Origin: a bacterium
GTDB lineage: Bacteria; Patescibacteriota; UBA1384; XYA2-FULL-43-10; JAKAMI01
Length of the DNA stretch: 42,150 bases
Direction: 5' to 3'
Assembly (NCBI GenBank): GCA_021812945.1
Contig: JAKAMI010000007.1
Location: forward strand, 1-42,150
In this document: one piece after another, positions 9,533 to 39,292 of the stretch
Position numbering within the stretch: position 1 is the stretch's first letter
Layout: every line of letters begins with the position of its first letter
Program-made: the position numbers and the translations under genes
Notes under the pieces: generated by a model
Database searches by the model: none
Told to the model about the DNA's origin: nothing
Seen by the model: the letters and a program-made list of their open reading frames with translations, nothing else

Positions 9533-9552
9533 TTTTCTGCCTGTAGATGATG

Positions 9553-9646
9553 TCATTCCGAACTTGATCCGGAATCTATATGATATATTTCTGGATCCCC
9601 GTATCAAGTACGGGGCAAGCTCTGAATCAAGTTCAGGATGATGTAT
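9553..9646. repeat. Palindromic repeat between frr and rseP
   Basis: gatgtcattccgaacttgatccgg...ccccgtatcaagtacgggg...gaatcaagttcaggatgatg. Confidence 0.75.
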
Positions 9647-12448: not shown

Positions 12449-12537
12449 TCATTCCCGCCCCGTATCCGGGTACGGGGTAAACTACAGCAGGAATCCAGTT
12501 TCTATTTCTGGATTCCGGATCATGTCCGGAATGACAG
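12449..12537. repeat. Palindromic repeat element in the rpsB-rpmE divergent intergenic region
   Basis: GTCATTCC...GGAATGAC terminal inverted repeat with internal CCCCGTATCCGGGTACGGGG and TCCAG...CTGGA stems. Confidence 0.75.
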
Positions 12538-20196: not shown

Positions 20197-20545
20197 AGTT
20201 TTGTCTCAAATATCCTATTACTTCATTGGTAAATAAATCGTACGCATTTATTAACTCACGAATGTTTTTCCTCCTTGCTTGGTCGTCTTTAAAACTATGC
20301 TCCACTACCAGTAAATCATGATACTTGACTTTTAGCCTTGCAGAAAGCAGATTCTGAGCAACTAAGTCCTCAGTCCAGGCAAGAATCGTCGCCGCCCAAG
20401 CTCGCCTGGCCTTGAATCTCCCGCCGCCGGAATGGTCGATTGTTGTATCCAGATCCCATTTCAAAAGATCACTCAAAACTTCTAATGTCCGATTAATTAA
20501 TTCTTTATCAATTTTTTCTAGGTTCTGACTTACAAATTCACCCAT
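20183..20545 (-). CDS. Hypothetical helical protein
   Basis: 120 aa ORF sharing 14 nt with gatB start; downstream of the HEPN-like gene. Confidence 0.6.
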   Translation of the reverse strand: MGEFVSQNLEKIDKELINRTLEVLSDLLKWDLDTTIDHSGGGRFKARRAWAATILAWTEDLVAQNLLSARLKVKYHDLLVVEHSFKDDQARRKNIRELINAYDLFTNEVIGYLRQNYAGI

Positions 20546-20996
20546 TGATATACTCCATTAGCATTTTAGCTGCTTGACGCAAGGTGTCTTTATCTATTTT
20601 AGCAGTTTCGTGGGCAATAAGGTTACGAACCTTGTGGCCCTGCCAGATGGCGTTGTAAAACTGCGGCTCGATGTAAGGCTGGGCTGCCCGCAGCCGGTCG
20701 GAAAATGATTGGCCGGAGTAACCTTTGGCGCGCAGTACGTAGTCGATCAGTTTGTCGGCTTCGATAACCGCTTGTTTCAGCTCGTAAATGTTGTCGGACC
20801 GGAGCATTTGTTCGATCTCGGTTCTTTTGTGAAAAATATGGGTGCGGACTTGGGAATTAAAGCCGGTGGCGCGTTTTCTTTTTTTAAAGGGAAGCGTGAC
20901 CAGCCACCATAGTAGCTTGAAAAATCCGCCGACAACCACCGCCAAGACATTGGGCTGATTTCTGTACCGATTTTTTCTGTGCTGGTAATTCGGCAT
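20538..20996 (-). CDS. Hypothetical protein with HEPN-like Rx4H motif
   Basis: N-terminal hydrophobic segment; AVIEADKLIDYVLRAKGYSG...HKVRNLIAHET. Confidence 0.6.
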   Translation of the reverse strand: MPNYQHRKNRYRNQPNVLAVVVGGFFKLLWWLVTLPFKKRKRATGFNSQVRTHIFHKRTEIEQMLRSDNIYELKQAVIEADKLIDYVLRAKGYSGQSFSDRLRAAQPYIEPQFYNAIWQGHKVRNLIAHETAKIDKDTLRQAAKMLMEYING

Positions 20997-21005
20997 CTCT
21001 CCTCA

Positions 21006-21878
21006 TTAGTCATTCCGGACTTGCTGTGCCCTTCCGTAGCCTTGTGCGAAGGAGGGATCTGGAAACCAGATGATTAAATCGATCGGGTCACTTTGGACTT
21101 TGTCACGTAATATTTTCAGATTATCACCGAAAAATAAAGTCCTATTTTGTAGATTATCCATATTTGTAGTCCCGGCTAATTGACAATTAAAGTAATATTT
21201 GATACCGTCGGTATGCAGGTTGTCGCAGGGCCGCCTGTCATCAAATGCAGAATCCCGCTTAGGCGGGATTTTTGCTTTTTTAAGATCTAGCTTCAACAAC
21301 TGACTTCTAAAATCAATAATATCAAAATAATAATTAGAGGCCGGTGGTAATTCTTTAGCTACATGGCCCTTTTTAGAAAAAACTGCTGTAATCTTATTTT
21401 GCCCTCTTAAGAACTTTAAAAGATATTCGAAATCGCAATCACCGGAAAACAATACAAATGAATCATATTTTTCAAGTAAGTACACGGCATCGGCAGTAAT
21501 TTCAACATCAAAATTCGCTTTTCGGTGGGGATGATCGATTGTGTGATCTCGGTATTCCTTCAATGCTTTTGTCTTTAGCCCGTAGCCGTCATTTTTAAGT
21601 ACTGTTAGAAACTTATCGTGTCCAGTATTATCAAACCTAGCAGAGTAAAAGATTATTTTCTTTAAATCAGAGTGTTTTTCAAAAAACCTCTTCAGTTTTT
21701 TATAATCTACCCTCCAACACAACTTATTTTCCTGGTATTTTTTGAATTTATCTGAGATATCTTTGGGATTTACCCACATCGCTTGAACAGAGCGCTCAAG
21801 ATTGGCGGCATCAATAAAAACGAATGTTTTTCCTTTTACCCCTTTACAGAATTTTTCGACCATCTCATCAATTTCCAT
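21006..21878 (-). CDS. NYN-domain (LabA/DUF88-like) protein with aberrant C-terminal extension
   Basis: VFIDAANLERS...NFDVEITADAVYLL...FVLFSGDCDFEYLLKFLR; C-terminus MDNLQNRTLFFGDNLKILRDKVQSDPIDLIIWFPDP resembles a DNA methylase N-terminus. Confidence 0.8.
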   Translation of the reverse strand: MEIDEMVEKFCKGVKGKTFVFIDAANLERSVQAMWVNPKDISDKFKKYQENKLCWRVDYKKLKRFFEKHSDLKKIIFYSARFDNTGHDKFLTVLKNDGYGLKTKALKEYRDHTIDHPHRKANFDVEITADAVYLLEKYDSFVLFSGDCDFEYLLKFLRGQNKITAVFSKKGHVAKELPPASNYYFDIIDFRSQLLKLDLKKAKIPPKRDSAFDDRRPCDNLHTDGIKYYFNCQLAGTTNMDNLQNRTLFFGDNLKILRDKVQSDPIDLIIWFPDPSFAQGYGRAQQVRND

Positions 21879-22665: not shown

Positions 22666-24158
22666 TCAAAGTTTTGGCTTGATATCTGATATTTTAGCTG
22701 CCTTCTCGAAGGCACTGGCTACTTCGAATATCTTACCTTCGCCCATCATCGGACCAATAATTTGTATACCGACCGGAAGTCCGGATTCGGTAAACCCAGC
22801 CGGTACACTCATGGCTGGAATGCCTGCCGTATTTATCGGTACGGTGTCAGCATCGGCTTTGTACATTGAAAGCGGATCATCCAACTTTTCTCCAATTTTA
22901 AAAGCCGGAAATGGTGAAACCGGCGCCATTAAGACATCGACTTCGGACAATATTTTTTCGTATTCTTCTTTGATTTTGGTGCGAACTTTGGCGGCTTTCA
23001 GATAATACGCATCGAAGTAACCGGAAGAAAGGGTATAAGTGCCCATCATAATGGATCTTTTTGCTTCACTGCCAAAGCCTTCAGTTCTTGACTGTAAGTA
23101 AACATCGCTCAAACTTAGTCCCACGTCCGGAGTCCGGAGTCCTGAGTCTTTGGACTTGATGGCTGACAGCCCGTAACGAATCCCATCATAGCGTGACAAG
23201 TTCGAAGAAGCCTCGGATTTTACCAGAACATAGTAGGTCGCAATGGCATATTTTGTCATGGGTAAAGAGACATCAACGACTTCTGCTCCCAAAGATTCCA
23301 GCATGGATTTCGCATTTTCTAAGATTCTGGCAACTTCATTATTCAACCCTTCGCCAAAGAATTCTTTTGGCAGACCTATTTTCTTCCCCTTCAAATCCGA
23401 TCGTAAAAAAGTTGTGTAGTCCGGTAGTTTATCGCGCGTGGTGGTTGAATCGTCAACATCATGCCCGGCAATATGGTTCAAGACAATGGCCGCATCTTCA
23501 ACCGTTTTGGTAATCGGGCCGATGGTATCAAAACTGGAGGCGTAGCTAACTACCCCGAATCTTGAGACCAGGCCGTAGGTAACTTTCAAACCCACTGTCG
23601 AACAAAAACTTGAGGGTTGGCGGATCGATCCGCCGGTATCCGTCCCCAGCGCAAAAACACACTCGTCGGCGCTTACCGCCGCGGCGCTTCCGCCGCTGGA
23701 GCCGCCAGGGACTCGCTCTAAATTCCAAGGGTTCTTGGTTGGCCCGAAATAAGAGTTTTCGGTAGAGGAACCCATGGTGAATTCGTCGGTATTGGCTTTG
23801 CCTAAAAGAATACAACCGGCATCCATCAGTTTTTTTGTCACTGTGGCGTCAAAATCGGGGATATAATCTTTAAGAATTTTAGAAGCGGCAGTAGTTTTTA
23901 TCCCTTTAGTTGAAAAGACATCTTTAAGAGCCATCGGGATACCATCTATTTACTTAGGGCTTCCCCTCGAGCCCGTCGTTCATCACTTGCCTTAGCCTGT
24001 TTGAGCGCTAATTCACTCGTAACCGTAATAAAAGAATTTAGTTTCGGTTCCAGTTGATTTATTCGGGCTAAAAATGACTCGGTTAGCTCAACCGAAGTTA
24101 TCTCGCCCTTTTCCAAGAGATCACGGGCCTCTTTGATTGTTAGTTTGTATAATTCCAT
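22666..24158 (-). pseudogene. gatA: Asp/Glu-tRNA amidotransferase subunit A, frameshifted near 23946
   Basis: N-terminal ORF 23946-24158 (MELYKLTIKEARDLLEKGEITS...) and C-terminal ORF 22666-23934 (MALKDVFSTKGIKTTAASKIL...GGSSGGSAAAV) join by a one-base shift restoring SK-LDGIPMALKD. Confidence 0.85.
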
Positions 24159-24680: not shown

Positions 24681-24735
24681 AATAGTCACTATCCAACTGT
24701 CCACCCGGCGGGTGGACAGTTGGATAGTGACTATT
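24681..24735. repeat. Perfect 26-bp-arm palindrome overlapping the ligA stop codon
   Basis: AATAGTCACTATCCAACTGTCCACCC-GGC-GGGTGGACAGTTGGATAGTGACTATT. Confidence 0.97.
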
Positions 24736-39231: not shown

Positions 39232-39292
39232 TAGTCTGAAGGTGTGAAGCTATTACACATCGGATGTGTAATAGCTTCACACCTTCAGACTA
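39232..39292. repeat. 61-bp near-perfect palindrome (30-bp arms, 1-nt centre)
   Basis: TAGTCTGAAGGTGTGAAGCTATTACACATC-G-GATGTGTAATAGCTTCACACCTTCAGACTA. Confidence 0.98.

Follow-up and report, generated by a model that had tools for sequence, protein, structure and literature searches.

A candidate cassette of an NYN-fold ribonuclease gene and a convergent small structured RNA in Patescibacteria

In strict type III toxin-antitoxin systems, the antitoxin RNA is encoded upstream of the toxin gene and in the same direction, often as tandem repeats. RNA motifs associated with DUF3800 were reportedly described by Weinberg et al. in 2017. DUF3800 itself has an RNase H fold (PMC10910872), and reports cited in PMC10910872 describe DUF3800 proteins as associating with noncoding RNAs. 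Small RNAs that partner nucleases serve as the antitoxins of type III systems, and Cas13 probably arose from them by way of AbiF (PMC12737573).

Here, we analyzed a 42,150-nucleotide stretch of a Patescibacteria genome (hereafter, the window), which belongs to a 0.91-Mb draft in 42 contigs that is 95.9% complete. The best explanation overall, to which we give a probability of roughly 0.6, is that the window carries a two-gene cassette, in which an NYN-fold ribonuclease gene on the - strand is met by a convergent RNA of ~70 nt acting as the partner of the NYN protein. Like the type III systems, including AbiF-AbiFr (PMC12737573), this locus combines an RNase with a dedicated small structured RNA, and the structured RNA gene does lie next to the RNase gene. 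It differs from them in that the RNA is not upstream, co-directional or tandemly repeated but downstream, convergent, in single copy and equipped with its own promoter; in addition, the type III toxins are ToxN or HEPN (AbiF) proteins, whereas the protein here is an NYN, for which neutralization is hypothetical. DUF3800-RNA modules resemble the NYN loci in placing a nuclease-fold protein gene beside a small structured RNA and in having several unrelated RNA families per protein family, and a DUF3800-like gene fills the same chromosomal slot in a relative (G006). They differ in that the window protein is NYN/PIN-like by Pfam and its RNAs are different, with no gathering-level match in Rfam 15. 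An NYN-RNA module was not found in the literature searched, the coverage of which was incomplete.

If the proposal is true, the list of RNA-partnered nucleases would gain another fold, that of NYN RNases which throughout a phylum have covarying RNAs dedicated to them; the RNA biology of this phylum is almost unexplored. Such modules are also directly testable, since the RNAs are ~42-75 nt and the proteins ~200 aa long. The features of the locus, in window coordinates, are as follows.

21264-21878, - strand: NYN-domain RNase-like gene, conserved part of 205 aa (Pfam, ortholog alignment, fold match)
21006-21263, - strand: putative C-terminal readthrough of the ORF, residues ~206-290 (orthologs end here)
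21180-21208, + strand: candidate small-RNA promoter, TTGACA (21180-21185), 17 nt, then TACCGT (21203-21208; weak -10) (TTGACA in 5/5 orthologous loci)
21209-21278, + strand: predicted small structured RNA (~70 nt), convergent with the NYN gene (covariance model R1, covariation)
21217-21236, + strand: RNA helix 1, AGGTTGTC-GCAG-GGCCGCCT, with one U-C mismatch in the window copy (alignment, pair counts)
21237-21250, + strand: conserved single-stranded RNA linker, consensus AUCAACUGCAG (alignment)
21251-21280, + strand: predicted intrinsic terminator, stem 21251-21258/21263-21270, then a T-rich tail (pair counts, terminator reading)
21072-21161, - strand: probable methylase relic, in which ~30 initial codons of an N6_N4_Mtase/Mrr_cat-type gene survive (homology, shuffle test)
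21009-21071, no strand assigned: dispersed intergenic palindromic repeat, CCCTTCCGTAGCCTTGTGCGAAGGAGGG unit plus TCATTCCGGACTTG unit, which ends the ORF (repeat searches)

The NYN gene and its 3' end

A single ORF of 290 aa spans 21006-21878 on the - strand, with the sequence quoted in the initial annotation, and its residues 1 to ~203 are an intact NYN RNase-fold protein. The NYN nuclease assigned earlier to the N-terminal part was borne out by a Pfam profile search, in which PF01936 (NYN) covers residues 17-186 (E = 3.1e-22; 80.1 bits vs the curated cutoff of 24.2). The acidic residues D23, D124, E126, D147, and D149 are invariant in the five-ortholog alignment, and D23, D124, D147, and D149 would be those expected for an NYN active site. 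The protein matched the bacterial NYN protein VPA0982 (PDB 2qip) both by sequence profile (E = 3.6e-7) and, as an AlphaFold model with a mean pLDDT of 73, in a Foldseek search (E = 6.5e-9); this model also matched the MARF1 NYN domain, the fold being common to the window protein and these two. To our knowledge, no RNA partner has been described for 2qip. The PADLOC match to the NYN protein was weak.

Four orthologs are 57-60% identical to the window protein (L033, from Magasanikbacteria, and those in G102, G275, and G384). The initial annotation had raised the question of whether NYN orthologs end before the hairpin at 21251-21270; when aligned, the four terminate just before, within, or just after it. 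In G275, the stop triplet sits in the hairpin loop, and L094 and L095, both orthologs, have stops that fall in or at the hairpin. The window loop holds a stop triplet as well, but out of frame. Because NYN orthologs end at or near the hairpin, the C-terminal extension appears to be readthrough past the normal NYN end, rather than a designed fusion or a chimera under selection. It runs through the antisense of the RNA gene, the antisense of the RNA promoter, the methylase relic, and finally the repeat. We postulate that the reading frame was lost where the terminator loop carries its stop triplet, whether by a genuine indel or by an error in the sequence, and that readthrough resulted. An annotated "fusion protein" can in this manner be readthrough across an unannotated RNA gene.

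Compatible with our preferred explanation is the reading that the long ORF stems from a mistake made in sequencing or assembling the draft, the native NYN protein stopping in the hairpin as its orthologs do, and we rate this as a serious possibility that falls just short of probable. The out-of-frame stop triplet in the loop, the ends of L094 and L095, and a frameshift in the essential gene gatA, ~2 kb away, all speak for an error, whereas genuine indels occur too and the adjoining methylase stub shows real decay.

The gatA gene itself (window 22666-24158, - strand) is split between ...GEALSK and IDGIPMALKD, while in relatives the frame is continuous; this is likely a sequence error or else a real lesion in an essential gene.

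The predicted small RNA and the recurrence of such RNAs at NYN genes

Covariance model R1 scores the window RNA at 80 bits, the window copy being part of the model. The perfect 8-bp hairpin reported earlier at 21251-21270 is present, but its interpretation as a repeat or repeat-mediated junction did not hold up: the stem pattern ATCCCGC-N2..8-GCGGGAT has a single occurrence in the 912-kb genome, and the hairpin is part of the conserved 3' end of NYN orthologs. Judging from the sequence, we read it as the intrinsic terminator of the small RNA, neither repeat nor scar; on the + strand, this terminator reads AGAATCCCGCTTAGGCGGGATTTT TGCTTTTTTA, and it overlaps the NYN gene at its 3' end. Given its weak -10 box (TACCGT) and the single mismatch in helix 1, the window RNA copy may be decaying.

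The layout recurs at all five orthologous loci of this NYN type (NYN-D), where the RNA, on the corresponding strand, directly follows a promoter made of TTGACA and a -10 box that are 17-18 nt apart. The RNAs (group D) are 70-77 nt long and consist of an 8-bp hairpin with a GCAG/GUAG tetraloop, the AUCAACUGCAG linker, and the terminator. Across the five sequences, 97.5% of the cells are paired and 8 of the 16 pairs show changes on both sides, and neither the pairing nor the both-side changes were matched by any of 500 shuffles; sliding the partners by 1-3 columns left about 36-45% paired. In addition, a model built from four loci recovered the fifth, G102, at 75.5 bits (E = 3e-15), with the next-best non-family match in 376 kb at 20.8 bits. 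A weak match of the RNA model inside the NYN gene of L018 was ignored. The linker CUGC could pair with the GCAG loop in a pseudoknot (95% paired); this pairing is consistent but shows no covariation, and we do not claim it.

Similar arrangements were found elsewhere in the phylum, where we examined the 3' ends of 102 distinct NYN genes. A strict signature, defined as an opposite-strand sigma70-like promoter (at least 10/12) lying 40-170 nt before an intrinsic terminator, was found antisense to the gene at 23 of 103 ends, vs 2 of 103 in the sense orientation and 1 of 515 mononucleotide shuffles. The promoter-terminator pair accompanied 20 of 94 NYN genes but 3 of 275 other genes (Fisher p = 2e-10), an imperfect control, since the non-NYN set contains some viral and mechanical ORFs. 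With all criteria taken together, a convergent RNA signature marked 39 of the 102 distinct 3' ends, and ~60% of the ends had no recognized RNA.

At least three structured RNA families, supported by covariation, follow NYN subfamilies. The group A RNA is 48 nt long with a T tail, has compensatory changes at 7 of 11 pairs, and in all eight cases (8/8) has its 3' end between -7 and +4 nt relative to the NYN stop codon. The group B RNA carries the motif AUCACSAUGA and an outer stem paired in 60 of 60 cells, with four pair types at one position, and its model recovers held-out members; in L159 (relative G134), three NYN-like genes stand in a row with a convergent group B match at each 3' end. Groups C and E are further small groups, the window RNA being group D, and several convergent RNA families beyond the three are likely to exist. 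No gathering-level match in Rfam 15 was obtained anywhere in the window or for the NYN-associated RNAs, the best permissive matches lying far below the cutoff.

In viral contigs, the group B RNA had no exact match and NYN-D a single relative, which was weak and partial; phages yielded no NYN-D relatives. Plasmids held only NYNs that were <30% identical, among the matches listed, and the convergent RNA signature was absent at the two plasmid NYN loci inspected. On a Bradyrhizobium plasmid (L172; NZ_CP064702), the NYN gene at 1516-2133 is followed by an antisense sigma54-like box, TGGCACGACTTATGCT, and a terminator hairpin, both identified by eye; this sequence is possibly a convergent RNA outside the phylum. 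In L005 (2238-2356; relative G086), an NYN gene with a convergent RNA signature is followed, on the far side of this signature, by the LOOT RNA (RF03000).

Chromosomal slot and proposed role of the RNA

The gene order gatCA-PPIase-HEPN-gatB is conserved within the taxonomic order, and the NYN cassette sits between the PPIase gene and the HEPN-like gene of this gat cluster, beside the methylase stub and the repeat. In six members of the order, the cassette is absent and the PPIase-HEPN gap measures 4-139 bp. The same gap holds the NYN cassette and methylase stub in the window genome (G000), another NYN, of 24% identity and accompanied by a convergent promoter, in G008, and a frame-broken DUF3800-like gene in G006 (L085 3040-4060; Pfam matches weak and below the cutoff). 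Behind the latter gene, a promoter-like sequence was seen by eye on the opposite strand, with no Rfam match. Within its own class, no NYN-D ortholog exceeds ~31% identity, but orthologs that are 58-60% identical occur in distant families, and horizontal spread is likely to account for this.

The HEPN-like small protein next to the cassette (window 20538-20996, - strand) has an RNLIAHE motif and a weak Abi_2 match. Of the 55 class genomes, 50 contain homologs, which lie immediately ahead of gatB where examined.

The arrangement suggests that the NYN nuclease has an RNA of its own, with which it cooperates or by which it is restrained. We propose that the small RNA would be transcribed from its own promoter and would bind the NYN nuclease via the hairpin and the conserved linker, that the RNase would stay inactive as long as the RNA is neither lost nor titrated, and that the pair would behave as a mobile defense or addiction module. 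This antitoxin version, in which loss of the RNA frees the nuclease, is offered tentatively, as a little less probable than not; alternatively, the RNA could be a cofactor or guide for the nuclease. Opinion could fall evenly to either side on the broader proposition that Patescibacteria hold widespread mobile NYN cassettes, each with a convergent small RNA as partner or antitoxin, which are absent from Rfam and from the literature searched.

A cis-antisense regulator, in which converging transcription and 3'-end pairing limit NYN expression in a type I-like manner and no specific RNA-protein complex forms, would fit the 15-50 nt by which the convergent 3' ends overlap in three group D loci. 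In G102, however, a palindromic MITE-like insertion (L169 3039-3220) has placed the RNA and the NYN stop 168 nt apart, and the promoter and RNA are kept despite this separation, which argues that the group D RNA matters as RNA and not as the antisense of the NYN gene end. The group A RNA, moreover, ends so few nucleotides from the stop codon that almost no coding overlap remains, and conservation lies in the pairing of the helices, where compensatory changes occur; we therefore consider such regulation rather unlikely. Still less probable is a conventional sRNA whose trans mRNA targets have no relation to NYN, the hairpin being its terminator only. The 3' helix is indeed a good intrinsic terminator, but each of the different NYN subfamilies is accompanied at this position by an RNA family particular to it, and strong RNA-model matches were found solely beside NYN genes among the loci examined.

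The methylase relic and the dispersed repeat

The methylase-like N terminus noted in the ORF tail is genuine from M240 onward. M240-I269 matches the N termini of fused N6_N4_Mtase and Mrr_cat methylases (L034 and L035), whose first ~30 residues are like the window tail; the tail is 58% identical to a G039 MTase (E = 4.6e-8), and the part before the repeat scored 40.8 bits vs a maximum of 25.0 among 1,969 scored shuffles. Pfam found no domain in the tail alone. The proposed cut at motif IV is not what we see: "IWFPDPSF" is not motif IV, the homology stops at "DLI", and the remaining residues are read from the repeat. Unlike L034 and L035, the window copy is an N-terminal stub that lacks the PF01555 catalytic motif IV (DPPY/F), including the DPPF form, and the full MTase domain beyond it. 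The rest of the methylase was not found elsewhere in the genome, and the other MTase-like match, on contig C37, covers query residues 247-309 only. Because the remainder is absent from the genome and the homology stops at DLI, the methylase piece is best read as a restriction-modification relic adjoining the NYN-RNA cassette and not part of it; its start lies ~19 bp beyond the -35 box of the RNA, in the opposite orientation. The suspected restriction-modification relic is thus supported for these ~90 bp, although scarring by a hairpin repeat is not.

The stretch taken as a linker in the supposed fusion corresponds to the antisense strand of the small RNA and its promoter. As methylase 5' DNA common to other methylases, it was rejected: apart from the repeat part, none of the 55 class genomes matched it at the DNA level, nor did any of 380 phylum genomes, and nothing convincing was found upstream of L034/L035. 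That the ORF is a nascent NYN-methylase chimera, or else a restriction-modification relic bearing repeat scars, is therefore very improbable even with a genuine ~30-codon methylase N terminus in frame and a stub ended by a dispersed repeat, given that the orthologs end at a hairpin unique in the genome, that the linker runs antisense to an RNA gene that is conserved, that the remainder of the methylase is missing from the genome, and that an open in-frame linker of ~27 codons arises by chance about 1 time in 10 (1/3 for the frame x ~0.27 for no stop; our own estimate).

Repeat-like DNA at the 3' end of the ORF was confirmed: the TCATTCCGGACTTG family has 16 sites vs 4.7 expected, and the dispersed palindromic repeat that follows "DLI" occurs in relatives too. 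Many intergenic palindromes of the TCATTCCGGACTTGATCCGGAAT type are present in the window (e.g., 9547-9585, 12504-12536, and 21010-21023), several of them directly upstream of gene starts. Long perfect inverted repeats at 39232-39292 (30-bp arms) and 24681-24735 (27-bp arms, at the ligA 3' end) form strong hairpins.
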